Below, in pieces: positions 18,617 to 35,285 of a stretch of DNA of 64,000 nt. A program made the position numbers and the translations under genes. The stretch comes from Mesorhizobium loti. GTDB taxonomy: Bacteria > Pseudomonadota > Alphaproteobacteria > Rhizobiales > Rhizobiaceae. The DNA is taken from assembly GCA_002356515.1 (NCBI GenBank), contig AP017605.1, positions 4,783,001 through 4,847,000 of the forward strand, written 5' to 3'. Below the pieces are notes generated by a model. That model had not been told where the DNA came from. It did not search any database and saw only the letters and a list, made by a program, of their open reading frames with translations. Each line of letters starts with the position of its first letter. Positions within the stretch are counted from its first letter, which is position 1.

Positions 18617-18692
<76 letters not shown>

Positions 18693-18769: not shown

Positions 18770-19152
18770 GACAGCCCAGGCCTCGGTGATGTCGGTCTCA
18801 CCGAACTGGCCCCGGCGGTCCTTTCACCAAGGGAACGCGCGCGCTTCGAGACCATGGGCGGACAGGCGAGACAGGATTTCTTTTTCACGCCGTGGCGCTC
18901 AAGGAAGCCTATGTGAAAGCGCGCGGTGTGAGCCTCTCCTTGCCGGTGAAGAAGCTTGAACTGGACCTGGAGGTCTCTCCGCCCATTGCCCATTTCGGCG
19001 ACGAGATCGATGACGATGCCTCGCGTTGGGCATTCCGCAACCTGCGTCTGACAGACCGGCACATTGTCGGCATCGCTGCCGCCATGCCCGATGGCGAACT
19101 TGAGATCGTGCCGAGGCGGACACGGGCCATCAATCCGCCTTTGCATGTCTGA
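18770..19152 (+). pseudogene. Truncated, frameshifted Sfp-type 4'-phosphopantetheinyl transferase
   Basis: Two overlapping frames together spell the C-terminal half of an Sfp/AcpS-superfamily transferase. The first frame gives LAPAVLSPRERARFE...DFFFTPW up to 18895. The second continues with ALKEAYVKARGVSLSLP, which is the conserved WxxKEAxxKARG magnesium and CoA-binding motif, and runs to a stop at 19152 with a typical RWAFRNLRLTDRH segment. One missing base near 18895 (TGG[G]CG) explains the shift. The N-terminal half, including the GVDxE motif, is absent or degraded. The remnant starts about 80 bases after tRNA-Ala. A short independent gene starting at GTG 18892 is possible but unlikely. 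Confidence 0.72.
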
Positions 19153-19162
19153 TCGTATCGCT

Positions 19163-19837
19163 TCAGCCGAGCAGCTCGGCGGCGACTTCGAGCGTGTTGC
19201 GGAACGACGTTTCGATGTGGTGCTCCATCGCCTGCGCGGCGCCTTCGGCGTCGTGGCGCTTCAGCGCGTCGAGAATGGCCCCGTGCTGCTCAATCGTCTG
19301 TTCGCCATAGCCGGGCTTCGGGATGACGAGGTAGCGGCCCCGATCCATCTGCGCCTTGGAGATGTCGACGGCGCGCCAGATTTTCGGCAGGCCGCAGATT
19401 TCGGCGATGCTGCGGTGGAAGACGTCGTCGAGCTGGATGGCGGTGGCATATCTGCCGCGCGATATGGCAAGGCGGTGCGCCGCCATATTATCCTCCAGAA
19501 GTTCGCCGGCCGACGGCGTGAATTTGACGGCCGCGCGCCTGGCGCTCTCCATCTCCAGGGCACGGCGGATGACATAGGCTTCTTCCAGGTCGACACGATT
19601 GATCGGCGCGACATAGGTGCCGGTCTGCGCCAGGATGGTGACGAGGCCCTCGTCACTGATGCGCTTGACCGCTTCGCGCACCGGTGTGCGCGAGACACCA
19701 AGGGCTTCGGCGATGGCCACCTCGTTGATGACTTCCCCCGGCTTCATCTGTCCGATGACAATCAGATTGCGGATCTTGTGGTAAATCTGATCGCGCAGCG
19801 GAAACGCCCGATTGAGCGTCGAAGGATCCAGGTCCAT
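19163..19837 (-). CDS. GntR-family (FadR/FCD) transcriptional regulator
   Basis: This 224-residue regulator has an N-terminal winged helix: IRNLIVIGQMKPGEVINE, then the recognition part ALGVSRTPVREAVKRI at about residues 45-60. The C-terminal all-helical FCD domain has histidines (DDVFHRSI, EQHGAIL, AMEHHIE) that usually bind a metal and an organic acid ligand. It is divergent from ssuD across 339 bases carrying several TTGGAA inverted motifs, so it is the likely regulator of the organosulfur island. Convergent with the pseudogene on its other side. Confidence 0.9.
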   Translation of the reverse strand: MDLDPSTLNRAFPLRDQIYHKIRNLIVIGQMKPGEVINEVAIAEALGVSRTPVREAVKRISDEGLVTILAQTGTYVAPINRVDLEEAYVIRRALEMESARRAAVKFTPSAGELLEDNMAAHRLAISRGRYATAIQLDDVFHRSIAEICGLPKIWRAVDISKAQMDRGRYLVIPKPGYGEQTIEQHGAILDALKRHDAEGAAQAMEHHIETSFRNTLEVAAELLG

Positions 19838-20013: not shown

Positions 20014-20059
20014 TTCCAATTTCACCGGAGGATTTGGAATAAACTAACTCTACAGAGTT
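20014..20059. promoter_or_regulatory. Candidate operators in the GntR-ssuD gap
   Basis: The 339-base divergent gap holds TTCCAA (20014-20019) paired with TTGGAA (20034-20039), and a perfect palindrome ACTCT-AC-AGAGT (20048-20059). TTATAG follows as a possible -10. A further TTGGAAT lies at 19879-19885, near the GntR start. These could be GntR operators or sites of a sulfur-starvation activator. The rest of the gap shows nothing else recognisable. Confidence 0.45.
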
Positions 20060-20176
20060 TATAGAATAAGCAAAGTGCGGGCGATCTGGTTTTTCCGGAC
20101 AGGACTCCGCCATGCCCGCCCCTCTGCGCTCGTTTTCAACCCTGTCAGGCCGCCGCCGCATTGCGGGAGGCCAGCC

Positions 20177-21349
20177 ATGACCAAGGACGTTCCCGACCGC
20201 ATCAAGGTCCTCTGGTTTCTGCCGACGCATGGCGACAGCCGTTACCTCGGCACCGCCGAAGGCGGCCGATCGGTCGATCTGCCCTATCTGACGCAAGTGG
20301 CGAAGGCCGCCGACACGCTGGGTTATTACGGCGTGCTGCTGCCGACCGGCCGCTCGTGCGAGGATTCCTGGGTGATTGCCTCGGCGCTGGTGCCGCAGAC
20401 GGAGCGGCTGCGTTTTCTCGTCGCCGTGCGGCCGGGCCTGCAGTCGCCGACGCTCGCCGCGCGCATGACCGCCACGCTTGACCGCATTTCCAATGGCCGC
20501 TTGCTGATCAATGTCGTCACCGGCGGCGATCCGCTGGAGAACAAGGGCGACGGCATTTTCCTCTCGCATGCCGAGCGCTACGAGGTGACGCAGGAATTCC
20601 TGCGAATCTACAAGCGCGTGCTGAGCGGCGAGACGGTCGAACACCAGGGCAAGCATTTCCACATCGAGGACGGCCGGCTGCTGTTTCCGCCGGTGCAGAC
20701 GCCCTATCCGCCGCTCTATTTCGGCGGTTCGTCCGATGCCGGATCGACGGTGGCGGCGCAAGAGATCGACAAATATCTGACCTGGGGCGAACCGCCCGCC
20801 GATGTCGAGCGCAAGCTGGACGCCGTTCGAGAGCTGGCCGAGAAGGCCGGCCGAAAACTCTCCTTCGGCATTCGTCTGCATGTCATTGCGCGGGAAACCA
20901 CCGAGGAGGCCTGGGCCGCCGCCGACCGGCTGATCAGCCGGCTCGACGACGCAACGATCGCTTCGGCCCAAAAGGTCTTTGCCCGCATGGATTCGGTCGG
21001 TCAGGCGCGCATGAGCGCGCTGCATGGCGGCGACCGCGCCAAACTCGAGATCGCGCCCAATCTGTGGGCCGGGGTCGGCCTGGTGCGCGGCGGCGCGGGG
21101 ACGGCCCTGGTCGGCGACCCCGACACCATTGCCGAGCGGATCGACGAATACCGGCGCCTCGGCATCGATACCTTCATCCTGTCCGGCTATCCGCATCTGG
21201 AAGAAGCCTATCGTTTCGGCGAACTCGTGCTGCCGAAGCTGCCGACAGATCATCCGGTCAAATCAGCCGGCTCGTCCGTCAACACCGGACCGTTCGGCGA
21301 GACCATCGCCGGCGACCACCGGCCGAAGTCGCTCGCCAGCGCCTCGTGA
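20177..21349 (+). CDS. ssuD: FMNH2-dependent alkanesulfonate monooxygenase
   Basis: This 390-residue luciferase-like (LLM) flavin monooxygenase cleaves alkanesulfonates to aldehyde and sulfite, releasing sulfur during starvation. SsuD hallmarks include [18 protein letters not shown] at the N-terminus, [29 protein letters not shown] and [16 protein letters not shown] at 20177 has GGAGG six bases upstream; 34 upstream codons in frame lack similarity. It opens a long plus-strand island ending in an MsuE-like FMN reductase (30716-31276), which can supply reduced FMN. The following gene overlaps it by four bases (GTGA). Confidence 0.92.
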
Positions 21350-22806
21350 ACGCGCTGCCGCCGGCCCGCCGCTTGCGCGTCGCCATCATCGGCGGCGGCT
21401 TCTCCGGCGCGGCCGTAGCCTGGCATCTGGCGCAAGCACATCGGCCGGAGCGTCTGTCGATCTCCGTAATCGAGCCGCGTCCAGCGCTCGGCGGCGGCCT
21501 GGCCTATTCCAGCGAAGAGCCATCGCACCGGGTCAATGTCCCGGCTATCAGAATGAGCATGGCTCCCGACGACCCGCAGCATTTTGCACGCTGGTTGGCC
21601 GGCAGCGGTGAACTCGAGCGCGACGGGGATGCCATTTGGAAGAATGGCGATGCCTATCCGCGTCGCCGTGTGTTTGGCCGTTACGTCGCCGAGCACCTCG
21701 CGCCCTATATCGAGACCGGCGCTGTCAGCCACGTCGAAGGCCAAGCCACGCGGGTCATACGAGAAGCCGACGGTGAGGGCTGGACCGTGCATACCTCCGC
21801 CGGTCCCGTCGCCGCCGACATCGTCATCCTCGCCGTGACGCATCCTGCCCCCGCAATCCCGGCAGCGCTTGCCTCCCTGGCCGAAGCGCCAGGCTTCGTC
21901 GCCGATCCCTACGCCGCGTCGGCACTTGCCGGCATCGATCCGGACGCCTCTGTGCTGATCGTCGGCTCCGGGCTGACCTCGGCCGACATGGTGGCCGAGC
22001 TTGATCGCCGCGGCCATCGCGGCCGCATCCTGGCGCTGTCGCGCCGTGGGTTGCGCTCGCGCGGCCATCCCGATGCCAGAGGCGAGCCCTTTGGCGATTT
22101 TGCCTCGGCGCCCGCCACATCGGCGCTTGGCCTGCTTCGCAACATTCGTGCGACGCTGGCGGCGGCGCGCGACGCCAATGTCAACTGGCAGTCCGTCTTC
22201 GACCAGCTGCGTCTGCAGGGGCCGGCGCTGTGGGCCGCCCTTGCTCCATCAGAACGGGCAAGGCTGGTCCGCCAGCTGCGGGTGTTCTGGGACGTGCATC
22301 GTTTCAGGATCGCCCCGCAAATTGCCTCCGTGCTCGACCGCCGCCAGGCCGCCGGCACCTTCGACACCATCGCCGCCAGGCTTGTGGCGTCGAACGATGA
22401 GGGCGAGAGCCTCGCGGTCAGCTTTCAGCGGCGCGGCCAGACGCGGATCGAGACGGCACGCTTCGATGTCGTCGTCAACACGACGGGGCCTGCTCACGGG
22501 CAGGCGCTTCAGCTCAATCCGGCGCTGCGCTCCCTGACTGAAGCCGGGCTGATCGGGGTCGACGCCTACGGGCTCGGCATCGCGACAAATCTCGACAGCC
22601 GCGCCATCGGCCAGGATGGCGGAGCGGTCGCCGGGCTCTTCGTCGCCGGTCCGCTGGCGCGAGGCACCTTTGGCGAGCTCATGGGCCTGCCGGAGGTCGC
22701 TCGCCATGCCCAGCTGGTCGCGGGAGAGATCGCGAGGCTGGTCGACACGCTCCCATTATCCGGGGCTTTCGGCGCCGATGCCGGGGACCTTGCGGTCGCG
22801 CGCTGA
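21346..22806 (+). CDS. FAD/NAD(P)-binding protein (NAD_binding_9-like)
   Basis: This 486-residue flavoprotein has the ADP-binding motif [18 protein letters not shown] at about residues 12-29, [20 protein letters not shown] typical of the FAD-NAD(P)-binding family, and a second Rossmann-type turn [17 protein letters not shown]. The GTG start overlaps the ssuD stop, so the two are coupled. Related proteins occur beside sulfur-acquisition monooxygenases, but their reaction is not established. It may reduce flavin or oxidise an organosulfur intermediate. It ends 166 bases before sfnG. Confidence 0.82.
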
Positions 22807-22841
22807 CAGGCGAAAGCCAGCCTGGACAGGGAAAATTGGTA

Positions 22842-22873
22842 TTTCCGTCCCAAGTGAGCGCCAAAAACGGAAA
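22842..22873. promoter_or_regulatory. Inverted repeat upstream of sfnG
   Basis: TTTCCGT (22842-22848) and ACGGAAA (22867-22873) form a 7-bp inverted repeat. An AT-rich stretch with TATATATAAT follows at about 22885-22893. Together they suggest a regulated promoter for sfnG separate from that of ssuD. Confidence 0.4.
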
Positions 22874-22972
22874 ATCCTACTTTGTATATATAATCAGTAG
22901 ACATAATAAATGTTGGCGAAATCCGGCTGCGCCCGGACCGATCAACGACACGGCCTGAATGGGAGACAGTTC

Positions 22973-24076
22973 ATGGCACACGCAGGAACCGACGCGGTCA
23001 AGTTCGCCTACTGGGTGCCGAATGTTTCGGGCGGCCTGGTGATTTCCAACATCGAGCAGCGCACCAACCATTCGGCCGAGTACAACCGCAAGCTGGCGCA
23101 GATCGCCGAGAAGGCCGGCTTCGACTATGCGCTGAGCCAGATCCGCTTCACCGCCGGCTACGGCGCCGACGAGCAGCATGAATCGGTGGCCTTCAGCCAC
23201 GATCTGCTGGCCGCCACCACGACGCTGAAGGTCATCGCGGCGATCCTGCCCGGGCCGTGGAATCCAGCGCTGGCTGCCAAGCAGCTCGCCACGATCAGCT
23301 ATCTGACCAATGGCCGTGTCGCCATCAACCTTGTCTCAGGCTGGTTCCGCGGCGAGTTCCACGCCATCGGCGAGCATTGGCTCGACCACGACGAGCGCTA
23401 CCGCCGCTCCGAGGAATTCATCCGTGCATTGCGCGGAATATGGACGGAAGACAGCTTCACCTTCCGTGGCGATTTCTACCGCTTCAACCAATATTCGCTG
23501 AAGCCGAAGCCGCCACAGCCGTTGCCGGAAATCTTCCAGGGTGGCTCGTCTCGTGCGGCGCGCGACATGGCTTCGCGTGTCTCGGACTGGTACTTCACCA
23601 ACGGCAACACGCCGGCCGAGATCGCCAAGCAGGTGGACGACATCAGGGCCAAGGCGAAGGCGAACAACCATTCCGTCAAGGTCGGCGTCAACGCCTTCGC
23701 CATCGTCCGTGAGACCGAGGACGAGGCCAAGGCGGTGCTCGCCGAGATCATCGCCAAGGCCAATCCCGAAGCCGTCAACGCTTTTGGCCACGAGGTCAAG
23801 AACGCCGGCAAGGCTTCGCCGGAAGGCGAGGGCAATTGGGCGAAGTCCTACTTCGACGACCTGGTCCAGTACAATGACGGCTTCCGTTCGAACCTGATCG
23901 GCACGCCGCGGCAAGTCGCCGAGCGCATCGTCGATCTCAAGCGCGCCGGCGCCGATCTCATCCTGCTCGGCTTCCTGCACTTCCAGGAAGAGGTCGAGTA
24001 TTTCGGCAAGCACGTCATCCCGCTCGTTCGCGAGCTGGAAGGCGCCGAGCAGGCAGCGTCACTCGCAGCGGAATAG
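22973..24076 (+). CDS. sfnG: FMNH2-dependent dimethylsulfone monooxygenase
   Basis: This 367-residue LLM flavin monooxygenase matches SfnG, which converts dimethylsulfone to methanesulfinate. Strong family signatures are VKFAYWVPNVSGGLVISNIEQ at the start, QIRFTAGYGADEQHESVAFS, VIAAILPGPWNPALAAKQLA, LVSGWFRGEFHAIGEHWL and EIFQGGSSRAARDMA. ATG at 22973 has GGAG eight bases upstream; an ATG at 22910 has no ribosome site. With SsuD it allows stepwise release of sulfur from sulfones via sulfonates. It is the first gene of the block leading into the ABC importer. Confidence 0.93.
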   Translation: MAHAGTDAVKFAYWVPNVSGGLVISNIEQRTNHSAEYNRKLAQIAEKAGFDYALSQIRFTAGYGADEQHESVAFSHDLLAATTTLKVIAAILPGPWNPALAAKQLATISYLTNGRVAINLVSGWFRGEFHAIGEHWLDHDERYRRSEEFIRALRGIWTEDSFTFRGDFYRFNQYSLKPKPPQPLPEIFQGGSSRAARDMASRVSDWYFTNGNTPAEIAKQVDDIRAKAKANNHSVKVGVNAFAIVRETEDEAKAVLAEIIAKANPEAVNAFGHEVKNAGKASPEGEGNWAKSYFDDLVQYNDGFRSNLIGTPRQVAERIVDLKRAGADLILLGFLHFQEEVEYFGKHVIPLVRELEGAEQAASLAAE

Positions 24077-24091
24077 CCATTTTCAAAAAAG

Positions 24092-24114
24092 GCAGGCCGG
24101 GCACTCCGGCCTGC
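24092..24114 (+). promoter_or_regulatory. Hairpin between sfnG and the LivG-like gene
   Basis: GCAGGCCGG, a five-base loop, then CCGGCCTGC. It follows the sfnG stop by 15 bases. An A-run precedes it, but no T-run follows on the plus strand. A stabilising or attenuating hairpin is more likely than a full terminator. Confidence 0.45.
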
Positions 24115-24197
24115 AACCGATGAAGGTTCCAGGCGCTCGATCCATCGAGCGTCAACGAGGCTTTGCGCGCCTGCTGAAGCAATCGAGGACGATTGGA

Positions 24198-25130
24198 ATG
24201 CCGTTGGCCAGTTATGCCCTTGGAATGATGGAGGCTTCGGTCTACGCGCCGGAGATCTTCGCGCGCGGCCTGCCGTCGACACGTCCAGCGCAGTCGTCCG
24301 AAGGCCGCGCCGACTCCACAGGAGTTGTCGCGGCTGCCGCCGCTCCGTTGCTCTCACTGCGGGGCATCAGCCTGTCGTTCGGCGGCGTCGTGGCACTGGC
24401 CGATATCGACCTGTCGGTGAACCCCGGCGAGATCCGCGCCATCATCGGCCCGAACGGCGCCGGCAAGAGTTCGCTGATCAACGTCATCAGCGGTGTCTAC
24501 CGGCCGGATCGCGGCCATGTCCTGCTCGATGGCATCCGCTATGGTCAGGTGCCGACGCAGCGCCTGGCGCATCTCGGCGTCGCCAGGACCTTTCAGAACC
24601 TTGCTCTGTTCAAGGGGCTCAGCGTCCTCGACAATGTCGCGTCCGGCCTCGCCTACAAGGTCCGCTCCAATTTCGCTGGCCAGGTGCTCGGCATCGGCCG
24701 CTCGCGTGGCGAGCGGCGCGACTCCCTGAGCCGCGCCGACCAGATCCTCGAATTCCTCGACCTCACCGCTGTTCGCGACCGTCTTGCCGGGACGCTGCCC
24801 TATGGACTGCAGAAGCGTGTCGAATTGGCTCGCGCGCTCGTCGCGCAACCGCGCCTGCTTCTGCTCGATGAACCGATGGCCGGCATGACCGCCGGCGAGA
24901 AAAGCGAGATGGCAAGTTTCGTGCGTGCCGCGCGCGACCGCTTCGCCACCACCGTCGTGCTGATCGAGCATGATGTCGGCGTCGTCATGGGCCTGTCTGA
25001 CCGCATCGCCGTTCTCGATTACGGCCGCAAGATCGCCGACGCCACGCCCGACGAAGTCCGCAACGACCAGCGCGTCATCGATGCCTATCTCGGCGTCGCC
25101 TCCGACAACGAGGACGGGGCAGGCATATGA
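24198..25130 (+). CDS. HAAT-type ABC transporter ATP-binding protein (LivG-like)
   Basis: This 310-residue ATPase belongs to the branched-chain amino acid type. Walker A GPNGAGKSS, the LivG-type RTFQNLALFKGLSVLDNV, a signature region LPYGLQKRVELARAL (degenerate C-loop usual in LivG) and Walker B LLLLDEPMAGM are visible. About 50 residues precede the ABC domain, more than normal. ATG at 24198 has GAGGAC upstream; ATG at 24120 is an alternative. Its stop overlaps the permease start (ATGA). The context of sulfur genes implies that the cargo is an organosulfur compound. Confidence 0.88.
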   Translation: MPLASYALGMMEASVYAPEIFARGLPSTRPAQSSEGRADSTGVVAAAAAPLLSLRGISLSFGGVVALADIDLSVNPGEIRAIIGPNGAGKSSLINVISGVYRPDRGHVLLDGIRYGQVPTQRLAHLGVARTFQNLALFKGLSVLDNVASGLAYKVRSNFAGQVLGIGRSRGERRDSLSRADQILEFLDLTAVRDRLAGTLPYGLQKRVELARALVAQPRLLLLDEPMAGMTAGEKSEMASFVRAARDRFATTVVLIEHDVGVVMGLSDRIAVLDYGRKIADATPDEVRNDQRVIDAYLGVASDNEDGAGI

Positions 25131-26026
25131 TCGCCGATTTCGACTACCAGTTCTTTATCGAAGTGCTCGTCGGCGGCCTGCTCTCCGGCGTCATGTACTC
25201 CTTGGTCGCGATCGGTTTCGTGCTGATCTACAAGACATCAGGCGTGCTGAACTTCGCGCAAGGCGCGCTACTGCTGTTCGCGGCACTCACCTTCGTCAGC
25301 TTTGTCGAGCGCGGTGTTCCCTTCGCCCTGGCCTTGGTGGCCACCTTCGCCATCATGGTGGCGATCGGCATCGCCATCGAGCGCACGGTGCTGAGACCGC
25401 TGACCAACAAGCCGCCGATCACGCTGTTCATGGCGACACTCGGGCTGTCGTATATCATCGAGGGCGCTGCCCAATTGATCTGGGGCACGCAGGTCCATGG
25501 CCTCGACCTCGGCATCGAGGACGTGCCGCTGGAAGTCGGCGGCGTGCTGATCAGCCAGTTCGACATCTTCGCGGCGGTGGTTGCCGCCGGCATGGTTCTC
25601 TTGCTGTCGCTGTTCTTCCGCTACACCCGCATCGGCCTCTCCTTCCGCGCCGTTGCCGACGACCAGTTCGCCGCCCTGGCTGTTGGTCTGCGGCTGCCGC
25701 TGATCTGGGCGACCGTCTGGGCCGCCGCCGGTCTTGTCGCCCTGGTCGCCGGACTGCTCTGGGGCGCCCGCCTCGGCGTGCAGTTCTCGCTGTCGCTGGT
25801 GGTGCTCAAGGCGCTGCCGGTGCTGGTGCTCGGCGGTTTCGATTCCATTCTCGGCGCCATCGTCGGCGGGCTGTTGATCGGCGCCAGCGAGAAACTCGCC
25901 GAGGTCTATATCGGCGACTATTTCGGCGGCGGCATCGAGAGCTGGTTCGCCTATGTCGTCGCGCTCATCTTCCTCTTGATCCGCCCCTCCGGCCTGTTCG
26001 GCCAGAAGCTTGTGGAAAGGGTCTGA
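25127..26026 (+). CDS. HAAT-type ABC permease (LivH-like)
   Basis: This 299-residue inner-membrane permease has about eight hydrophobic helices. LivH-type features include GGLLSGVMYSLVAIGFVLIYKT near the N-terminus followed by LNFAQGALLL, then the coupling region SFRAVADDQFAALAVGL and the terminal LLIRPSGLFG. It pairs with the LivM-like permease that begins three bases after it. Its overlap with the ATPase gene shows translational coupling. Confidence 0.92.
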   Translation: MIADFDYQFFIEVLVGGLLSGVMYSLVAIGFVLIYKTSGVLNFAQGALLLFAALTFVSFVERGVPFALALVATFAIMVAIGIAIERTVLRPLTNKPPITLFMATLGLSYIIEGAAQLIWGTQVHGLDLGIEDVPLEVGGVLISQFDIFAAVVAAGMVLLLSLFFRYTRIGLSFRAVADDQFAALAVGLRLPLIWATVWAAAGLVALVAGLLWGARLGVQFSLSLVVLKALPVLVLGGFDSILGAIVGGLLIGASEKLAEVYIGDYFGGGIESWFAYVVALIFLLIRPSGLFGQKLVERV

Positions 26027-26029
26027 GCC

Positions 26030-27154
26030 ATGGCCGCGATCACAAGCGAGTTTTCTTCCGCGCCGGTGCTGCCGAAATGGATCGCGCCTGTGCTGCTGCT
26101 TGCCTTCGCCTATGGCGTCGTGCCGCTGATCGGCTCGAGCTATCTGTTCGAGGCCATCCTACTGCCGTTCCTGGCACTTGGCCTTGCCGGTGTCGGGCTG
26201 AACATCCTCACCGGCTATGCCGGCCAGGTCTCGCTGGGCAGCGCCGCCTTCATGGCAGCGGGCGCCTTCGCCGCCTATAATTTCAACTTGCGCGTCGAAG
26301 GCCTGCCGCTCATCGGAAGCATTTTTTTCGCCGGCATCGTCGCCGCCGCGATCGGCATCGTCTTCGGCCTGCCCAGCCTGCGGCTGAAGGGCTTTTATCT
26401 CGCCGTCTCGACGCTCGCAGCCCAGTTCTTCGTGCAATGGGCGCTGACCAAGTTCAGCTGGTTCTCCAACGATTCGGCGTCCGGCGTCATCGACGCGCCG
26501 AAGCTGTCGATTTCAGGCTTCGCGTTCGACGGCGCCGTCGGCCGCTATCTCTTCGCGCTGACCATCGTCAGCATCCTCACCTTCCTTGCCTATCGGCTGG
26601 TCTCGTCGCAGACCGGGCGCAACTTCATCGCCATCCGCGACAATGAAACCGCTGCCCGCATCATCGGCATTCCGGTGCTGAAGACCAAGCTTCTGGCCTT
26701 CGCCATCTCCTCCTTCATCATTGGCGTCGCCGGCGTCATCTGGGCCTTCGCGTATCTGCGGACCGTCGAGCCGGACGGCTTCGATCTCGACCGCTCCTTC
26801 CAGATCCTCTTCATCATCATCATTGGTGGCCTCGCCTCGATCCGCGGCGCCTTCTTCGGTGCCGCTTTGATCGTCGTCTTTCCGCTTGGCTTGTCGCGTC
26901 TTGGCGGCTTCCTGCTCGGCGACGTCTTTGACTCCGGCGTGCTCGACATGAGCCAGCGCATCGTGCTCGGCGCCCTCATCATCCTGTTTCTGATCCTCGA
27001 ACCGGACGGGCTGGTGGCCCTGTGGGACAGGTCCGAAGACGGCTCCTGTTCGCCTGGCAGTCGACCTGAGCCCTGCGGGGCAACCCGCACCGAACTGAAA
27101 TCCGAAAATGAACCAGAGGCCGAACCAAGACGGCCCATACCGGGAGTACCCTGA
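26030..27154 (+). CDS. HAAT-type ABC permease (LivM-like)
   Basis: This 374-residue permease has typical LivM stretches: GLNILTGYAGQVSLGSAAFM, LPSLRLKGFYLAVSTLA, and the coupling loop FIAIRDNETAARIIGI. The C-terminus runs about 40 residues past the usual LEPDGL end in a hydrophilic, Glu/Pro-rich tail that looks unstructured. It forms the transmembrane heterodimer with the preceding gene. The binding-protein gene follows after two bases, so the genes are on one transcript. Confidence 0.92.
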   Translation: MAAITSEFSSAPVLPKWIAPVLLLAFAYGVVPLIGSSYLFEAILLPFLALGLAGVGLNILTGYAGQVSLGSAAFMAAGAFAAYNFNLRVEGLPLIGSIFFAGIVAAAIGIVFGLPSLRLKGFYLAVSTLAAQFFVQWALTKFSWFSNDSASGVIDAPKLSISGFAFDGAVGRYLFALTIVSILTFLAYRLVSSQTGRNFIAIRDNETAARIIGIPVLKTKLLAFAISSFIIGVAGVIWAFAYLRTVEPDGFDLDRSFQILFIIIIGGLASIRGAFFGAALIVVFPLGLSRLGGFLLGDVFDSGVLDMSQRIVLGALIILFLILEPDGLVALWDRSEDGSCSPGSRPEPCGATRTELKSENEPEAEPRRPIPGVP

Positions 27155-27156
27155 CA

Positions 27157-28494
27157 ATGACCTTCTTCAGCACCATCAAGGCGGCGGCGCTGTCCGCGGC
27201 GATGATCGTGTCGGTGGCCTTGCCGGCCGCCCACGCCGACGAACAGTATTTCCCGCTGCAAAGCTATCGCGTCGGACCCTATGCGGCCGGCGGCACCGGC
27301 TTCTTCGGCGGCTTCATCGACTATCTCAACCTCATCAACATCCGCGACGGCGGCGTCAACGGCGTCAAGCTGACCTGGGACGAATGCGAGACCCAGTACG
27401 AGGTCGAGCGCGGCGTCGAATGCTACGAGCGGCAGAAGAGCCATGCCGGTGCCGCCGCCTGGAATCCGCTTTCGGTCGGCATCGCCTATGCCATGATCGA
27501 CCGCATCACTGCCGACAAGGTGCCGCTGATCACGGTCAACCACGGCCGCACCGATTCCACCGACGGTCGTGTCTTCCCCTATGTCTTCCCGCTGCTGCTC
27601 AACCCCTACAGCGAGACGTCGGGCATCGTGAACTACATCGCCTCCAAGGAAGGCGGCATCGACAAGCTCAAGGGCAAGAAGATCGTCGTGCTCTATCACG
27701 GCTCGCCCTACGGCAAGGAGACCATCCCGATCTATGAACTGCTGGCGCAGAAATACGGCTTCACCGTGCAGCAGATCGAAGTGCCGCATCCCGGCAACGA
27801 GCAGCAGTCGCAGTGGCTGACCATCCGCCGCGCCAAGCCGGACTTCGTCGTCCTGCGCGGCTGGGGCGTGATGAACCCGGTGGCGCTGAAGACGGCGGTC
27901 AAGGTCGGCTATCCCGTCGACCACATCGTCGGCAATGTCTGGTCGAATTCGGAAGAGGACGTCATCCCGGCCGGCGACGCCGCCAAGGGTTACACCGCCA
28001 TCACCACCCAGGCTTCCGGTAACGCCTATCCGGTGGTGCAGGAGATCGTGAAGACGGTCTACGGCGCCGGCAAGGGCAATCTGGAAGACAAGTCGCGCAT
28101 CGGCTCGGTCTACCACAATCTCGGCATCGTCAACGGCATCCTGAATGTCGAGGCAATCCGCGTCGCGCAGGAGAAGTTCGGCCATCGCACGCTGACCGGC
28201 GACGAAGTCCGCTGGGGCTTTGAACACCTCAAGCTCGATCCGGCCAAGGTCGAGGGGCTCGGCGCCAAGGACCTCTTCCACTCAATCAACGTCAGCTGGG
28301 ACAACCACGAGGGCGAAGGCTACGTGACCTTCCAGCAGTGGGACGGCAAGAAGTGGAACGTCGTCTCCGACTGGATCGCGCCGGACTGGGCGCTGCTGCG
28401 GCCGATCATCGAGAAGTCGGCCGAGGCCTATGCCGCCGAGAAGGGCATCAAGCTGCGCACCGCCGATGATGCCAACGCCGTGACCACCAACTGA
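27157..28494 (+). CDS. HAAT-type ABC transporter substrate-binding protein
   Basis: This 445-residue periplasmic protein has a signal peptide ending about AAHA|DEQ. The mature chain is a type I (LivK/Peripla_BP_6) binding fold with YRVGPYAAGGTGFFGGFIDYLNL early and VVLYHGSPYGKETIPIYELLA at the hinge. It is longer than amino acid-binding relatives, and the ligand region cannot be read from sequence. Its place between SfnG/SsuD and SfnB/MsuE genes argues for a sulfone, sulfonate or similar ligand. A strong hairpin follows the stop codon. Confidence 0.88.
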   Translation: MTFFSTIKAAALSAAMIVSVALPAAHADEQYFPLQSYRVGPYAAGGTGFFGGFIDYLNLINIRDGGVNGVKLTWDECETQYEVERGVECYERQKSHAGAAAWNPLSVGIAYAMIDRITADKVPLITVNHGRTDSTDGRVFPYVFPLLLNPYSETSGIVNYIASKEGGIDKLKGKKIVVLYHGSPYGKETIPIYELLAQKYGFTVQQIEVPHPGNEQQSQWLTIRRAKPDFVVLRGWGVMNPVALKTAVKVGYPVDHIVGNVWSNSEEDVIPAGDAAKGYTAITTQASGNAYPVVQEIVKTVYGAGKGNLEDKSRIGSVYHNLGIVNGILNVEAIRVAQEKFGHRTLTGDEVRWGFEHLKLDPAKVEGLGAKDLFHSINVSWDNHEGEGYVTFQQWDGKKWNVVSDWIAPDWALLRPIIEKSAEAYAAEKGIKLRTADDANAVTTN

Positions 28495-28502
28495 TCACTG
28501 GT

Positions 28503-28538
28503 GCCGGGCGCTACGGAGAACTCTCCGCGGCGCCCGGC
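28503..28538 (+). promoter_or_regulatory. Two-stage intercistronic hairpin after the binding-protein gene
   Basis: An outer stem GCCGGGCGC/GCGCCCGGC encloses an inner stem CGGAG/CTCCG with a four-base loop. It lies eight bases after the stop of the binding protein and before the LivF-like gene. No T-run follows, so it probably protects the upstream mRNA or partly limits read-through. Confidence 0.6.
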
Positions 28539-28573
28539 CCATTACGGTTCCTCGAACCGCGGAAGAAGAGCCC

Positions 28574-29380
28574 ATGCCGGACAATGACGTCATCCTTGCG
28601 GTGGACACGGTCCATGCCACCTATAACCACGCCATCACGGCGCTGCATGGCGTCAGCTTCGAGATCAGGCGCGGCGAGATCCTGGCGCTGCTCGGCGCCA
28701 ACGGCGCCGGCAAGACCACCACACTGAAGGCCGTCTCCAACCTGCTGCCGGCCGAGCGCGGCCAGGTCAATGCCGGCACCATCCGCTATGACGGTGCCGA
28801 TGTCTCGCGCCGCAAACCGGGTGACCTCGTGCGCGCCGGCCTGGTTCCGGTGCTCGAAGGCCGCCATTGCTTCAAGAGCCTCACCGTCGAGGAGAATCTG
28901 GTCGCCGGCGGCATCGGCCGCAGCGGCCGCCGTGCCGAGATCAATCAGGATCTTGAGCGGATCTATGGCTATTTTCCCCGGCTGAAGGAGAAGCGCCGGA
29001 CATTATCCGGCCTGACATCCGGCGGCGAACAGCAGATGACCGCCATCGGCCGGGCGCTGATGTCGCGGCCGCGCCTGCTGGTCCTCGACGAACCGTCGAT
29101 GGGGCTGGCTCCGCTTATCGTCCAGGACATCTTTCAGACGCTGAGAAAGCTGAACCGCGAGTCCGGCCTGTCGATCCTGGTCGCCGAGCAGAACTCGGCG
29201 GTCGCGCTGCGCTATGCCGACCACGCCACGGTGCTCGAAAACGGCGTCTCCGTTCTCTCCGGCGCCGCTGCCGATCTTCGCCAACGCGAGGATGTGCGCG
29301 CCTTCTATCTCGGTCAATCGACCACCGGCCAACAACCATCGCCGGCTGCGAAGCCAACCCATCTCCATGCCGTTGCCTGA
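28574..29380 (+). CDS. HAAT-type ABC transporter ATP-binding protein (LivF-like)
   Basis: This 268-residue second ATPase of the importer has Walker A GANGAGKTTT, the LivF-type LVPVLEGRHCFKSLTVEENL, signature LTSGGEQQMTAIGRALM and Walker B LLVLDEPSMGLAP. The C-terminus has a short, unusual Pro/His tail after FYLG. Gene order here (G-H-M-K-F) puts the binding protein inside the cluster. It ends 25 bases before the SfnB-like gene, so transport and catabolism are co-transcribed. Confidence 0.92.
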   Translation: MPDNDVILAVDTVHATYNHAITALHGVSFEIRRGEILALLGANGAGKTTTLKAVSNLLPAERGQVNAGTIRYDGADVSRRKPGDLVRAGLVPVLEGRHCFKSLTVEENLVAGGIGRSGRRAEINQDLERIYGYFPRLKEKRRTLSGLTSGGEQQMTAIGRALMSRPRLLVLDEPSMGLAPLIVQDIFQTLRKLNRESGLSILVAEQNSAVALRYADHATVLENGVSVLSGAAADLRQREDVRAFYLGQSTTGQQPSPAAKPTHLHAVA

Positions 29381-29404
29381 AACGAAATCTCTAGGAGCAG
29401 CAAT

Positions 29405-30652
29405 ATGACCGTCTCGACCGTCAAGACAGACCACGCCTCCGCCGCCGTGCCGCCCGTCGCAAGGCCATCGGCGCCGGCCCACATCATTCGGGACGACGCC
29501 GAGGCGATTGCCATCGCCCACGCGCTCGCCGCCGAATTCGTCAAGGACTCCTCCAGGCGCGACCGTGAGCGCATCTGGCCGGTTGCCGAGCTCGACGCCT
29601 TCTCGCAAAGCGGCCTGTGGTCGATCAATGTGCCCAAGGCCTTCGGCGGGCCGGAAGTGTCCTACGTGACGCTGGCCAAGATCATCGAGATCATCTCGGC
29701 GGCGGATTCCTCCATCGGCCAGATCGCGCAGAACCATCTCGGCGTCATCGCCGCGATCCGCACCGTTTCCGACGCGGAACAGCAGAAGCTGCTGTTTGCC
29801 GAAGCGCTGAAGGGCACTCGGTTCGGCAACGCCTTTTCCGAGTTCGGCTCCAAACGCGCCGCCGATTTCGAGACGCGCTTCACCGATGCCGGCGACCATG
29901 TCGTCGTCAACGGCCGTAAATTCTATTCGTCCGGCGCTTTGCTCGCGCATCTGGTGCCGATCGTGGCGCTCGATGACGAGGGCCGTGCCTGGTATGCGAT
30001 CGCCGACCGTGGCGCGCCGGGCCTGACCGTCATCGACGACTGGTCGAGCTTCGGCCAGCGCACGACCTTGTCGGGCACTGTCATCATCGACAACGTCAAG
30101 GTGCCGAAGACGCATCTCGTGCCCGGCTACAAAGGCTACGACAAGCCGACCGCCGACGGCGCCATCTTCCAGATCATCCAGGTGGCGGTCGACACCGGCA
30201 TCGCCCAGGCGGCGATCGACGAGACGGTTCACTTCGTCAGGACGAAGAGCCGCGCCTGGATCGACAGCGGTGTCGACAAGGCATGGGACGATCCCTACAC
30301 CATCCAGGTGATCGGCGACCTGACGCTGCGCCTGCACGCCGCGCAGGCGCTGCTGGAAAAGGCCGGCCTGGCGATCGACAAGGCGGTGGCCGAGCCGACG
30401 GCGGAGACGGTGGCGCATGCGCAGATCGTCACCGCGGAAGCAAAAATCCTGTCGACCGAGATCGCGATCGCCGCGACAAACAAGCTGTTCGAACTGGCCG
30501 GCACGCGCTCGACGCTGGCCGAGCACAATCTCGACAGGCATTGGCGCAATGCCCGCACCCACACGCTGCACGATCCGGTACGCTGGAAATACTCGATCCT
30601 CGGCAAGTATTTCCTCAACGGCGAAAACCCGCCGCTGCACGCCTGGAGCTGA
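29405..30652 (+). CDS. SfnB/DszC-like acyl-CoA dehydrogenase-fold flavoprotein
   Basis: This 415-residue protein of the acyl-CoA dehydrogenase superfamily belongs to the sulfur-acquisition branch (SfnB family, related to DszC and other FMNH2-dependent oxygenases). Supporting segments are LWSINVPKAFGGPEVSYVTL, AQNHLGVIAAIRT and GNAFSEFGSKRAADFETRF, while the catalytic glutamate of true acyl-CoA dehydrogenases is not evident. The C-terminal DPVRWKYSILGKYFLNGE is typical of the group. Expected role: an oxygenase or oxidoreductase acting on an organosulfur substrate, fed by reduced flavin from the next gene. AGGAG precedes ATG 29405. Confidence 0.87.
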   Translation: MTVSTVKTDHASAAVPPVARPSAPAHIIRDDAEAIAIAHALAAEFVKDSSRRDRERIWPVAELDAFSQSGLWSINVPKAFGGPEVSYVTLAKIIEIISAADSSIGQIAQNHLGVIAAIRTVSDAEQQKLLFAEALKGTRFGNAFSEFGSKRAADFETRFTDAGDHVVVNGRKFYSSGALLAHLVPIVALDDEGRAWYAIADRGAPGLTVIDDWSSFGQRTTLSGTVIIDNVKVPKTHLVPGYKGYDKPTADGAIFQIIQVAVDTGIAQAAIDETVHFVRTKSRAWIDSGVDKAWDDPYTIQVIGDLTLRLHAAQALLEKAGLAIDKAVAEPTAETVAHAQIVTAEAKILSTEIAIAATNKLFELAGTRSTLAEHNLDRHWRNARTHTLHDPVRWKYSILGKYFLNGENPPLHAWS

Positions 30653-30715
30653 TTCCCCATCGGCGGGCCGGGTGGCCCGCCACTTCAAACTTCGACATCC
30701 AAGAGGCCCACTGCC

Positions 30716-31276
30716 ATGTCAAACCCCACAGTCGTCGGCTTTTCCGGCAACATCACCCGGCCGTCAAAGACGCGCGCCTTCGTCGACCTCGTCACCAGGG
30801 ACATCGCCGCGCGCCATGGCCTTTCGGCTGTCACCTACGACATCGAGGATGTCGGCCCTTCGCTCGGCACGGCACGGTGGGCGCGCGACCTCGACGGCCA
30901 GGCGCAGCCGATCCTGGCGCAGATCCTCGCGGCTGACGTGCTGGTGGTCGGCTCGCCGACCTACAAGGGCAGCTATACCGGCCTGTTCAAGCACTTCTTC
31001 GACCTCATCGATCCCTCGGCGTTGCGGGGCAAGCCCATCGTGCTGACGGCGACCGGCGGCGGCGAACGCCACGCTCTGATCGTCGAGCATCAGCTGCGGC
31101 CGTTGTTCGGTTTCTTCGAGGCTTTTGCCTTGCCGACCGCTGTCTACGCCACCGACAAGGATTTCACCGACGGCGTGCTGCGCTCCGAGGCGATCCTGAA
31201 GCGCGCGGCGCAGGCGGTGGACGAGGTCGGCTTCGTGCTGGCCAACCGATCGGCAGGCAGGGTCGCCGCCGAGTAG
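30716..31276 (+). CDS. msuE: NAD(P)H-dependent FMN reductase, MsuE family
   Basis: This 186-residue flavodoxin-like reductase has VVGFSGNITRPSKTRAFVDLV at the flavin phosphate loop and VVGSPTYKGSYTGLFKHFFDL, the SsuE/MsuE signature. HALIVEHQLRPLFGFF follows in the second half. It supplies FMNH2 to SfnG, SsuD and the SfnB-like enzyme. It is the last gene of the sulfur island, 63 bases after the SfnB-like gene. Confidence 0.92.
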   Translation: MSNPTVVGFSGNITRPSKTRAFVDLVTRDIAARHGLSAVTYDIEDVGPSLGTARWARDLDGQAQPILAQILAADVLVVGSPTYKGSYTGLFKHFFDLIDPSALRGKPIVLTATGGGERHALIVEHQLRPLFGFFEAFALPTAVYATDKDFTDGVLRSEAILKRAAQAVDEVGFVLANRSAGRVAAE

Positions 31277-31867: not shown

Positions 31868-32407
31868 TCACGGCTGGTTGCCGGCCGCGATGTGGCCGGC
31901 AGCCTGCTCCATCCACGTCCAAAGATAGGCCGCAAGACCACGGTCAACCTGGATGCGCAGCTTGCTTTCATGGCGATAGACGATGGCGCCGATGCCGGCG
32001 AAGGAAAGTGCCGCGCTGGCGCTTGGCTGCCTGGGATCAAGCGTCGTCCCGCGTGCGATGACGGCTTCAAGCGCTGGGCCTTCGACCTCGAACACCTGCA
32101 GCCCGGCGCTGATCTCCGTCACGGCGAACCCCTCGGGCGACCACCCGGTGGCCATGCCGATGGGCGTGGTGGACACGGCAAGCAGGCGGTCGCGTGCCAG
32201 GCGCACCGAATAGCGTATGCCTTCCGCCAGGCCGAATGCCCCGACGGCCGGTCCGTCGAAGCCGGAAGCCTCGGCCCACGCGGGAAGATCGCCACTGACT
32301 AGGCGTTGGTGCAGCCCGGTAACGGCGCCTATTTTGAGCCCCGGCACTTCGATCGTGGCGGTTCGCCAGTCCGGCGCGACCGACCATTTTTCCGCGAGAT
32401 CACGCAT
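31868..32407 (-). CDS. soxG: Sarcosine oxidase gamma subunit
   Basis: This 179-residue subunit of heterotetrameric sarcosine oxidase has the WRTATIEVPGLKIGAVTGL entry and late STTPIGMATGWS, which fit the GcvT-like SoxG fold. It contacts the alpha subunit near the folate-binding region. ATG at 32407 overlaps the soxA stop by eight bases (ATGCGTGA), giving tight coupling. It is last in the order soxB-soxD-soxA-soxG. Confidence 0.9.
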   Translation of the reverse strand: MRDLAEKWSVAPDWRTATIEVPGLKIGAVTGLHQRLVSGDLPAWAEASGFDGPAVGAFGLAEGIRYSVRLARDRLLAVSTTPIGMATGWSPEGFAVTEISAGLQVFEVEGPALEAVIARGTTLDPRQPSASAALSFAGIGAIVYRHESKLRIQVDRGLAAYLWTWMEQAAGHIAAGNQP

Positions 32408-35285
32408 GGAGCCGCTCTCCTGCCAGGTCGAAGGCGCAAGGCGCGGCGATCGTCGCCGTGCGGACCTTGCCGAGATGCTGGATTTCGATCGTCTCGCCAT
32501 GGCGCGCCGCGCCGCGTTCGATCAGTCCGAGAGCGATGGGCCGGCCAAGCGTCGGGCTCTGGTAGCTCGAGGTGACGAAGCCCTGGCTGTGCAGCCTGCC
32601 ATCCTCCCGCTTGATGCCATGTGCGCCGGTTGGCAAAGGCGCTTCGCCTTGCGGCACCGTCAGGCCGACAAGCTGCAGGCGATCGCCGCGCGAAGCCTCC
32701 TCGGTGAACAGCGAGCGGCGGCCGACATATTCGCTCTGGCGTTTGACGCGGGGCCCTTCGGAGCCGAGGTCGTGCGGCAGCGTGGTGCCGTCCGTGTCCT
32801 TGCCGATGACGATGAAGCCTTTCTCTGCGCGCAGGATCATCAGCGCTTCGAGGCCGATGATGACAGCGTCGAACGCCTGGCCTGCCCGGCGCAGACGTGC
32901 CCAGAGCGGCTCGGCGCGATCCGCAGGGACGGAGACCTCATAACTCCTGTCGCCGGTGAAGCTGACGCGGGCGATGCGCACCGCGTCACCGCCATAGCTG
33001 CCATGGCCGACCGCCATATGTGGCAGGTCGGCCTCGTCGAGCGAGAGGCCAAGATCGACCGTTTCGAGCAGCTTCCTTGCATTCGGTCCGGAGACGGTCA
33101 GCGTCGCCATGTCCGAGGTGGCGTTGTGGATATAGACGGCGTCGCGGCCGAAGCGATCCTGACGCCATTCCTCCAGCCGCGCATGCACCGCCGCGACATG
33201 CGAGGACGAGCAGGAGACGACGAAGCGATGCTCGTCGAGCCGCACCAGAACGCCGTCATCGAAGACCACGCCGTTTTCCGACAGCATGAAGCCGTAGCGG
33301 CAGCGGCCCGGCTTCAGCGTCGACATGGTGTTGTAATAGAGGAAATCGACGAATGCGGCGGCCTGCGGGCCGATCACCTCGATCTTGCCCAGCGTCGAGC
33401 CGTCGAACAGCGCCACCGACCGGCGCGCGCGCAACGCCTCGTCCTGGATGGCGCGATCCGCATCGGCGTCCCGGCCACCATAGTGAGCCGGCCGCAGCCA
33501 GCCGCCATATTCCTGGAAGACCGCGCCGCTGTCGCGATGCACATTCTCCAGCGGCAGGCGGCGCACCGGCGCCATCAACTCGCCAACGCGCGCGCCGGCA
33601 AAGCTTGCCAGCGGCACCGGCGTGAAGGGTGGGCGGTATGTGGTGGTGCCGACCTCCGGCACCGTGCGTCCGGTAATCCCGGCCATCAGCGCCAGGCCGA
33701 GCAGGTTGGAGGTCTTGCCCTGGTCGGTCGCCATGCCGAGCGTGGTGTAGCGCTTGAGATGCTCGACCGAGACGAAGTTTTCGCGCGCCGCCAGTTCGAC
33801 ATCCTTCACCGTCACATCGTTCTGATAGTCGATCCAGATGCGCCCTTTCGAGCCGGGCACCGGCCACGCGGCCGTTATGCCGCCCGTCGCCTCCGGCCCC
33901 GTGCTGCGCGGCACTGCGGCTTTCGTTTTGCCGAGCGAGGCAACAGCCTTCTCCGAAGTAGCGAACACCTCCGACAAGGAAACCGCGCCGGCGGCGGCGC
34001 CGGCCACGGAAATGCCATCGACCGGATCGCCCGGCAGGAAGGCGGCACGTGCCTCGCTCCAGGCAAGCTTGCCCCTGGCCTGGCCGAAGAGATGAATGGT
34101 CGGCGTCCAGCCGCCCGAGACCAGCACGCAGTCGGCATCGAGCCTGGTGCCGTCATCCAGCGTCACGCCCTCGACGCGCAGCCTGCCCTTGGCGGCGGCA
34201 AGCGCCCGCCCTTTGACCAGCCGCACTTTGGTTGGCGCGTCGGGCATGCCGTCAAGCCTGATGTCGACCAGCGTGATGTCGGATCCAGCTTCGGCGAGTG
34301 CTCCTGCGACCTCGTAGGCACTGTCATTGTTGGTCGCGACGACGACGCGGCGGCCGACCAGCACCGCATGGCGCCCGAGATAGGCGAGCGCCGCATCCGC
34401 CGACAGGATGCCCGGCAGGTCGTTATTGGCGAAGGGCAGCGGCCGCTCGATGGCGCCGGTTGCCAGCACGATCTGGCGCGGCCGGACCCGCCACAGCGTG
34501 TCGCGCCGGCCATCGAAATGACGCTGGTTCAGCCCGACCAGATTGTGGTCGTAGATGCCGAAGGCGGTGGTCGCAGGCAGGATCAGGTGACCGCCGGCGG
34601 AAAGTTCGGCAACCGTCTCCTCGACCCAAATCGCCGCCGGCTTGCCGTCGATCTCGCCGGCACGATGGCCGAGCGATCCGCCCGGCTTCCGCTGGTCGTC
34701 GACCAGCACGACGGATAGACCAGCGTCGGCCGCCAGCCTGGCCGCCGCCAGTCCGGCCGGTCCCGCACCCACCACCAGCACATCGCAATGATGGTTGACC
34801 TGGTCCGCCGTACCCGGCGCGGTCCATTCCGTATCGACCTTGCCCAGCCCGGCCATGGCGCGGATGCGCGGCTCGAACATGTGCCAGTCCGGCCACATGA
34901 AGGTCTTGTAGTAGAACGCCGCCGGAATGAAGCGCGAGAAACGGTCGAGGAAGGCGTTGCGATCGGTCAGCGCGCTCGGCGTCGCGTTGACGCTTTTCGC
35001 CACCAGCCCGTCGCGTGCCGGCTCGGTCGTGGCCCGCGTGTTCGGCGTCGCCTGCGGGCTGCCGACATCGACCAGCGCGTTCGGCTCCTCGACGCCGGCG
35101 CCCCAGATGCCGCGCGGCCGGTGATATTTGAAGCTGCGGCCGACCACCGCGACATCGTTGGCCAGCAGCGCGGAGGCGATGGTGTCGCCGGCAAAGCCTT
35201 GCACGGTGGCGCCATCGAAGCTGAAGCGGATCGGCTGCGAGCGGTCGATGGCGCTGCCGCCTGTGGCGAGACGCGAGGCGGTCAC
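32400..35285 (-). CDS. soxA: Sarcosine oxidase alpha subunit
   Basis: This 961-residue subunit has four parts in order. An N-terminal 2Fe-2S-fold-like domain lacks the cluster (FSFDGATVQGFAGDTIASALL). A FAD/NAD-binding domain carries DVLVVGAGPAGLAAARLA at about residue 165. A linker follows with WPVPGSKGRIWIDYQNDVTVKDVELA, and then a C-terminal GcvT-like tetrahydrofolate-binding half (RCRYGFMLSENGVVFDDGVL). The enzyme oxidises sarcosine to glycine and forms methylene-THF. GTG at 35285 overlaps the soxD stop (GTGA). Confidence 0.96.
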   Translation of the reverse strand: MTASRLATGGSAIDRSQPIRFSFDGATVQGFAGDTIASALLANDVAVVGRSFKYHRPRGIWGAGVEEPNALVDVGSPQATPNTRATTEPARDGLVAKSVNATPSALTDRNAFLDRFSRFIPAAFYYKTFMWPDWHMFEPRIRAMAGLGKVDTEWTAPGTADQVNHHCDVLVVGAGPAGLAAARLAADAGLSVVLVDDQRKPGGSLGHRAGEIDGKPAAIWVEETVAELSAGGHLILPATTAFGIYDHNLVGLNQRHFDGRRDTLWRVRPRQIVLATGAIERPLPFANNDLPGILSADAALAYLGRHAVLVGRRVVVATNNDSAYEVAGALAEAGSDITLVDIRLDGMPDAPTKVRLVKGRALAAAKGRLRVEGVTLDDGTRLDADCVLVSGGWTPTIHLFGQARGKLAWSEARAAFLPGDPVDGISVAGAAAGAVSLSEVFATSEKAVASLGKTKAAVPRSTGPEATGGITAAWPVPGSKGRIWIDYQNDVTVKDVELAARENFVSVEHLKRYTTLGMATDQGKTSNLLGLALMAGITGRTVPEVGTTTYRPPFTPVPLASFAGARVGELMAPVRRLPLENVHRDSGAVFQEYGGWLRPAHYGGRDADADRAIQDEALRARRSVALFDGSTLGKIEVIGPQAAAFVDFLYYNTMSTLKPGRCRYGFMLSENGVVFDDGVLVRLDEHRFVVSCSSSHVAAVHARLEEWRQDRFGRDAVYIHNATSDMATLTVSGPNARKLLETVDLGLSLDEADLPHMAVGHGSYGGDAVRIARVSFTGDRSYEVSVPADRAEPLWARLRRAGQAFDAVIIGLEALMILRAEKGFIVIGKDTDGTTLPHDLGSEGPRVKRQSEYVGRRSLFTEEASRGDRLQLVGLTVPQGEAPLPTGAHGIKREDGRLHSQGFVTSSYQSPTLGRPIALGLIERGAARHGETIEIQHLGKVRTATIAAPCAFDLAGERLHA

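Follow-up and report, generated by a model that had tools for sequence, protein, structure and literature searches.

A branched-chain-type ABC importer within a candidate sulfone-assimilation operon of Mesorhizobium loti

Assimilation of sulfur from dimethylsulfide (DMS) through dimethylsulfone (DMSO2) has been described in Pseudomonas and Acinetobacter, where it involves SfnG, MsuC, SsuD/MsuD, MsuE, and Dms1-3; in the excerpts of that account available to us, the group D enzymes Dms1-3 take DMS through dimethylsulfoxide (DMSO) to DMSO2 in steps powered by MsuE, SfnG converts dimethylsulfone to methanesulfinate, SsuD converts methanesulfonate to sulfite, and deletion of msuC gave no significant defect (PMC13352529). 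We report here on a ten-gene block at positions 20177..31276 of a 64,000-nucleotide stretch of Mesorhizobium loti DNA (hereafter the window; C1:4783001-4847000 of an 8.45-Mb genome whose nearest relatives are Mesorhizobium). The block has the enzyme classes SfnG, SsuD, MsuE, and group D monooxygenase in common with the Pseudomonas and Acinetobacter system, but it unites these steps with a complete HAAT-type ABC importer, for which the same excerpts describe no counterpart, and adds an FAD/NAD(P)-binding protein (hereafter the FAD protein).

The importer shares its five-part architecture and domain families with the LIV-I/LS (LivJ/K-HMGF) and UrtABCDE systems, yet its subunits score below the Liv and Urt cut-offs and its partners are sulfone enzymes instead of amino-acid or urease genes. 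Urea, the Urt substrate, is a small polar neutral solute, as are the sulfone and sulfoxide considered below. The SsuABC and TauABC sulfonate importers likewise feed the release of sulfite from organosulfur compounds, with binding-protein and permease families other than those of a HAAT importer. Uptake of the SsuABC/TauABC type is named in the excerpts of papers on sulfolane (PMC6395730) and Rhodococcus (PMC8557817), in neither of which the term "branched-chain" occurs. The literature searched describes no HAAT importer tied to sulfone assimilation, and none of the papers searched combined the terms "sfnG" and "branched-chain amino acid"; the search covered open-access texts, so both are weak negatives.

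We read the block as an operon that scavenges sulfur from small methylated organosulfur compounds and has a dedicated importer, and give this reading a probability of about two in three. In the proposed scheme, the HAAT importer, with a binding protein from a clade specialized for organosulfur ligands, would bring in dimethylsulfone or dimethylsulfoxide; SfnB, a group D flavin monooxygenase, would most likely oxidize a sulfide or sulfoxide to the sulfone; SfnG would convert dimethylsulfone to methanesulfinate, which SfnB or free FMNH2 would take to methanesulfonate; and SsuD would free sulfite for cysteine synthesis. MsuE would give FMNH2 to SfnB, SfnG, and SsuD, while the FAD protein would be a self-contained class B monooxygenase acting on an organosulfur substrate that feeds SsuD. 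We infer all ligands and reactions of the window proteins, against a background of observed gene content, conservation, co-occurrence, binding-protein phylogeny, the fold predicted for the FAD protein, and a shared upstream dyad.

Gene content and sulfur enzymes

All ten genes lie on the + strand without internal stops, in the order ssuD, FAD protein, sfnG, livG-livH-livM, type I binding protein, livF, sfnB, msuE:

20177..21349, +, ssuD, FMNH2-dependent alkanesulfonate monooxygenase (TIGR03565; nearest PDB entry 7jv3, alkanesulfonate monooxygenase)
21346..22806, +, FAD/NAD(P)-binding protein, predicted class B flavoprotein monooxygenase (PF13454, structure model)
22973..24076, +, sfnG, dimethylsulfone monooxygenase (TIGR04021)
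24120..25130, +, LivG-type ATPase with an N-terminal extension of ~75 residues (ABC_tran and BCA_ABC_TP_C)
25127..26026, +, LivH-type permease (BPD_transp_2; below the LivH and UrtB cut-offs)
26030..27154, +, LivM-type permease (BPD_transp_2; below the LivM and UrtC cut-offs)
27157..28494, +, type I periplasmic binding protein, 445 aa (Peripla_BP_6, 133 bits)
28574..29380, +, LivF-type ATPase (ABC_tran)
29405..30652, +, sfnB, flavin monooxygenase with the acyl-CoA dehydrogenase fold, group D (TIGR04022; Acyl-CoA_dh domains)
30716..31276, +, msuE, FMN reductase, presumed to serve the monooxygenases (TIGR03566)

An earlier note, made from the sequence alone, had described this unidirectional set of SsuD, SfnG, an SfnB-like protein, MsuE, a full HAAT importer, and an FAD gene, and every member was found in its place; the GTGA coupling that it proposed is likewise seen, as a 4-base overlap in which the GTG start of the FAD gene at 21346 falls inside the end of ssuD. 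The sfnG reading frame is open from 22910, and the ATG at 22973 has the better ribosome-binding site. A gap of 166 bases separates the FAD gene from sfnG, so the block may form two transcription units.

Four of the enzymes pass their equivalog cut-offs: SsuD for TIGR03565 (631.6 versus 518.2 bits), SfnG for TIGR04021 (595.5 versus 382.95), SfnB for TIGR04022 (609.1 versus 430.9), and MsuE for TIGR03566 (255.5 versus 212.5). By the NF043015 equivalog, SfnB is not a DszC dibenzothiophene monooxygenase (191.6 of 850 bits). Its PDB relatives are DszC 3x0x (E 4e-51, 177.5 bits) and the methanesulfinate monooxygenase MsuC 6u76 (E 1.7e-48, 168.8 bits), to which it scores about equally; because family and PDB relatives both place it in the group D fold, its likeliest role would be to oxidize a sulfoxide to the sulfone or a sulfinate to the sulfonate. 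Taken with SfnG and SsuD, this might allow the operon to turn a sulfoxide or sulfone into sulfite.

The importer, its partners, and its ligand

Conservation was assessed in 80 loci from named genomes with a close binding protein, taken as the best 80 among the 579 relatives detected, of which 71 have full flanks (at least 7 kb upstream and at least 5 kb downstream). Identity thresholds were at least 65% for SfnG, 70% for SfnB, 40% for the MsuE-type reductase, 55% for SsuD, and 45% for the FAD family; the counts describe close relatives, many in one genus, and not independent events. SfnG and SfnB are each present in 69 of the 71 full-flank loci, an MsuE-type reductase in 64, the FAD family in 42, and SsuD in 40. 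The exact order sfnG-G-H-M-binding protein-F-sfnB is found on one strand in 68 of the 71, and because it is kept in 74/80 loci overall, the arrangement is far from chance. That the transporter belongs to the sulfur block, as the earlier note supposed, is borne out by these counts. Since SfnG and SfnB are its constant partners and SsuD a variable one, the importer appears tied to sulfone oxidation, not to the sulfonate step, and is best read as an importer for the SfnG/SfnB substrate. We are reasonably confident that its ligand is some organosulfur compound; dimethylsulfone or dimethylsulfoxide is our single best guess, to which we allow a little less than an even chance. In L014, L066, and L080, sfnB, sfnG, or livH is split into two tblastn pieces, possibly through frameshifts or sequencing errors.

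Genome samples point the same way as the loci. Binding proteins of at least 75% identity occur in 5 of 385 genomes sampled across the class, and SfnG occurs in those same 5 and in none of the 380 others (Fisher 1.5e-11), with the two genes within 5 kb in 4/5. In the order sample (199 genomes), all 9 genomes with a binding protein of at least 69% identity have SfnG, compared to 7/190 others (Fisher 1.0e-11), and the distance is within 7 kb in 7/9; in the phylum sample (299 genomes), the figures at an identity of at least 81% are 5/5 and 9/294 (Fisher 1.0e-7), and one genome has a binding protein at 53% without SfnG. The three samples are not fully independent, as all contain this genome and G283 and the order and phylum samples also share G567. 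Binding proteins of at least 69% identity are thus confined to genomes with SfnG in all three samples, the co-occurrence that the earlier note had asked to have checked. Orthologues sit with SfnG and SfnB instead of mostly with amino acid genes, so the outcome that the note had named as refuting its reading is not seen.

Several points weigh against an importer dedicated to the sulfone pathway. Genomes with SfnG that lack this transporter are common (7/16 in the order sample, 9/14 in the phylum sample). The transporter is not beside sfnG in G283 and G557, which carry sfnG elsewhere in the genome, far from it, nor in two Agrobacterium vitis loci (L076 and L079), the two full-flank loci without sfnG and sfnB; in L076, NtaA/DmoA- and SfnB-type genes lie a few kb away. 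In G504, 5-7 kb separate the transporter from sfnG, and the two are on opposite strands. As neutral molecules, DMSO and DMSO2 would moreover be expected to cross membranes unaided; the urea system provides a precedent for a HAAT importer of a small, neutral, permeable solute. Finally, relatives outside the sulfone clade are tied to acyl-CoA ligases, which makes a carboxylated ligand possible.

This last point rests on binding-protein matches at 38-52% identity, which are common (the sole match type in 81 of the 385 class-sample genomes): among 20 such loci hand-picked from the class sample, AMP-binding or PaaK-type acyl-CoA ligases adjoin 19, and one has neither. In an unrooted tree of 72 binding-protein rows, a single branch (support 100/99) sets the 46 sulfone-linked and NtaA/DmoA-linked rows apart from all 25 ligase-linked rows; if the root lies among the latter, the first lineages to diverge on the sulfone side (37 rows, 100/98) are two Burkholderiales plasmid loci. 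The ligase neighbourhood suggests carboxylate ligands for these relatives, and the importer studied here could by extension carry a larger organosulfur molecule, perhaps carboxylated, that SfnB, SfnG, and the FAD monooxygenase would trim. A short AMP-binding reading frame still present in a Burkholderiales sfnG operon speaks for the same: in Paraburkholderia hospita (L165:5953-7101), a 382-residue frame between sfnG and livG covers only AMP-binding positions 1-117 of 384, and Caballeronia (L166) has a comparable frame that matches the ligase at 24%, possibly a remnant of the older acyl-CoA-ligase operon type in both. We nevertheless consider a larger ligand improbable. The 37 sulfone-clade rows differ from 26 outside rows (the 25 ligase-linked ones and L204) by T107V, Y129H, G264N, Y320H, and R322L, among others; position 322 is Leu in 37/37 of the former and Arg in 92% of the latter, and the loss of this arginine, along with the changes at other sites, would be compatible with an uncharged ligand if these positions line the pocket.

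A second HAAT operon of this genome (C1:5967769-5975500; ~5770-13508 of locus L148), preceded by the same dyad as the block (see below), is flanked by an NtaA/DmoA-family monooxygenase (TIGR03860, 533 bits) and an SfnB relative, and is a candidate sister organosulfur importer. The SfnB relative is 79% identical to its A. vitis copy, which scores 262.7 of 430.9 bits and hence falls below the SfnB cut-off. Other operons of the NtaA/DmoA type vary in content: one in G468 has a second SfnG (L161:8987-10036; 54% to the one described here, above the TIGR04021 cut-off) between binding protein and livF, and some (L109:8523-11263, L092, L106) have two tandem binding proteins of separate clades with one permease set.

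Quite improbable, in our view, is delivery to SsuD of its sulfonate substrate (methanesulfonate or a different alkanesulfonate) by the HAAT importer. As a charged compound, methanesulfonate requires a carrier, and in Mesorhizobium ssuD shares the block with the importer while SsuABC and TauABC are lacking there; the earlier note, which had reported the absence of such transporters, was right as far as the block is concerned, there being no SsuA/TauA-type binding protein among its ten proteins. For the genome as a whole it was not, as tau-like and ssuADCB-like operons lie ~0.63 Mb away and one SsuA-family protein exceeds the TIGR01728 cut-off. With Ssu/Tau-type importers elsewhere and SsuD in just 40 of the 71 full-flank loci, against 69 for SfnG and SfnB, sulfonate uptake by the HAAT importer, which the note had implied, does not follow from their lack in the block. 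The distant genes (C1:4165148-4172150, locus L149) comprise a tau-like ABC operon and then an ssuA-ssuD-ssuC-ssuB-like operon, with a dyad before each, the second having one mismatch.

The transporter itself is of the HAAT (LivFGHM) type, its two ABC_tran ATPases, two BPD_transp_2 permeases, and Peripla_BP_6 binding protein forming a complete set in one cluster. All four Liv-type subunits miss the LIV-I/LS equivalog cut-offs (LivG 249.8/362, LivH 77/379, LivM 93.8/366, LivF 220.6/441 bits) and those of the urea system (UrtB 82.2/250.3, UrtC 64.3/296.2, UrtD 195.9/304.1, UrtE 192.6/285.8 bits). The binding protein matched no NCBIfam model at E 0.001. Its closest solved relative is 4ru0 (E 3.5e-149, residues 6-438), annotated as branched-chain amino acid binding, which has Ser where the sulfone clade has Leu322; profile comparison with LivJ/LivK gave a probability of 0.4% and E 0.16, with no usable residue mapping, and the AlphaFold model is poor (pLDDT 58), with no readable pocket. 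A standard transporter of branched-chain amino acids, amides, or carboxylates that merely sits in the operon would agree with the family and with the database names of the importer's relatives (branched-chain amino acid transport), but is very improbable given the missed cut-offs, the strict co-occurrence of the binding protein with SfnG, and the 99 BPD_transp_2 matches in the genome, which offer many other candidates for that role.

If the importer does serve the SfnG/SfnB substrate, the sulfone-assimilation pathway gains an uptake system, and many transporters that now carry a branched-chain amino acid annotation would import organosulfur compounds instead, among them those with binding proteins at 80-90% identity on 109 plasmid records, mostly from Rhizobium and Agrobacterium.

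The FAD protein beside SsuD

The earlier note had assigned the FAD protein to the sulfur route, and it is indeed a recurrent companion of SsuD. Among 111 genomes of the order, the family occurs in 19 (E 1e-50, identities from 32%) and SsuD in 16, with both in 15 (Fisher 4e-14), so that 15/16 SsuD genomes have it; at an identity of at least 49%, it occurs in 10 genomes, 9 of which have SsuD. The two matches lie within 5 kb in 10/19 genomes, and within 160 bases on one strand in 6. Relatives adjoin SsuD or other organosulfur monooxygenases in Mesorhizobium, Aureimonas, Pantoea, Komagataeibacter, and Shinella, and likewise in Sinorhizobium, where an Rrf2 regulator is also present, in Agrobacterium C58, where the neighbour is sfnB, and, at 32% identity, in Rhizobium, where the gene lies opposite tauABC. 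As exceptions, one locus has no sulfur genes beside the family member, and another has just a TauE/SafE-type exporter ~6 kb away.

The structure model is confident (pLDDT 88.6), and a predicted two-dinucleotide-domain fold of N-hydroxylating and flavin-containing monooxygenases spans the whole chain. The best Foldseek match is the aspartate N-hydroxylase FzmM (E 9.8e-21; 18-21% identity), with KtzI, SidA, and PvdA also matched; flavin-containing monooxygenases match as well, and disulfide reductases over fewer residues. The class B N-hydroxylating monooxygenases thus have the fold predicted here, whereas the partner gene in our block is ssuD. On the strength of the model, the FAD protein is probably a one-component class B oxygenase; that it oxygenates an organosulfur substrate feeding SsuD is a tentative proposal, to which we give somewhat less than even odds. 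Were it correct, it would suggest what role is played by an uncharacterized FAD/NAD(P) family found alongside SsuD in alpha- and gammaproteobacteria.

The FAD protein might instead be an N-hydroxylase, or a flavin or disulfide reductase, that aids SsuD in some way other than by oxygenating a sulfur compound. Aspartate and ornithine N-hydroxylases are among its best fold matches, and by Z score bacillithiol disulfide reductase comes first (27.2 over 316 residues), tied with FzmM (26.9 over 441 residues), with thioredoxin reductases next over ~300 residues. The reductase matches are, however, shorter than that to FzmM, and N-hydroxylases lead by Foldseek; set against either function is a context of organosulfur monooxygenase clusters, and we consider this alternative rather unlikely. 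Escherichia coli YdhS was rejected as a functional guide, its similarity being N-terminal alone (35% over 62 residues).

Upstream dyads, expression, and neighbouring features

Two dyads and a divergent regulator gene lie at the 5' side of the block's two possible transcription units:

20048..20066, +, dyad CTCTAYA-N6-ATAGAM 5' of ssuD, presumed binding site for a regulator that responds to sulfur limitation (by eye and pattern search)
22884..22902, +, degenerate dyad GTATA-N9-TAGAC 5' of sfnG, weak (by eye)
19163..19837, -, GntR/FCD regulator, divergent neighbour (PF00392 and PF07729)

The ssuD-upstream dyad is visible by eye, with variants, in most Mesorhizobium-type loci. Its exact form occurs at three sites in the genome, before ssuD, the tau-like operon, and the NtaA/DmoA-HAAT operon; the pattern was derived from those same three sites, which are thus no test of it. 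With one mismatch there are 8 further places, of which the 2 examined, neither used for the pattern, are at organosulfur genes. One such site, at 4168345, precedes the ssuADCB-like operon. The other, at C2:101846, is an inverted repeat whose 7-base arms match perfectly (GTCTATA-N5-TATAGAC); it precedes an unidentified reading frame and a monooxygenase in a tau-type gene cluster. A control pattern, the dyad read backwards, gave 8 matches versus 12, both strands of the inverted repeat being counted. The dyad upstream of sfnG was not recovered when the whole genome was searched with one mismatch allowed, and scans for sigma-70 promoters and terminators found sites no more numerous than in shuffles. 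The small contig also carries, at C2:99400-109150 (locus L218), luciferase-like monooxygenase (LLM) genes, TauBC-like genes, and an MsuE relative (64%).

In the excerpts of a study of Mesorhizobium huakuii hypE bacteroids, MCHK_6264 (SsuD), MCHK_6266 (SfnG), and MCHK_6272 ("sulfur acquisition oxidoreductase") are all lowered, with values of 0.61, 0.66, and 0.58 (PMC10454058, Table 3); the text mentions these genes in that table alone. The tag spacing of +0, +2, and +8 equals the gene order described here, the mapping of genes being taken from the tags. The same table lists many other lowered proteins, so the joint decrease is weak evidence of co-regulation. Sulfur terms gave no match in the M. 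huakuii transcriptome paper PMC3973600.

A fuller account, which we put forward as speculative and at odds clearly below even, is that a distinct HAAT clade would provide high-affinity uptake of compounds of the dimethylsulfone/dimethylsulfoxide type, having arisen from acyl-CoA-ligase-linked carboxylate importers, and that in Mesorhizobium it would be joined by a new class B partner of SsuD and by a CTCTAYA-N6-ATAGAM regulon expressed in root nodules.

The GntR regulator was rejected as a conserved part of the system, being present in just 6 of 27 Mesorhizobium-type loci (L009-L035), one of which (L017) is too short upstream to reveal it. Base composition likewise gave no support for a foreign island: the G+C content of the block (0.63-0.66) lies inside the flank range (0.61-0.68), so the "island" of the earlier note is simply a gene block, with no compositional sign of recent insertion. 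Just 5' of the block is a tRNA-Ala (GGC) gene (18617-18692), and between it and the GntR gene, 18850-19150 resembles a phosphopantetheinyl transferase remnant. On the 3' side, the - strand at 32400-39318 carries, by Pfam, sarcosine oxidase alpha-type and DAO/GCV_T (dimethylglycine dehydrogenase-like) genes.

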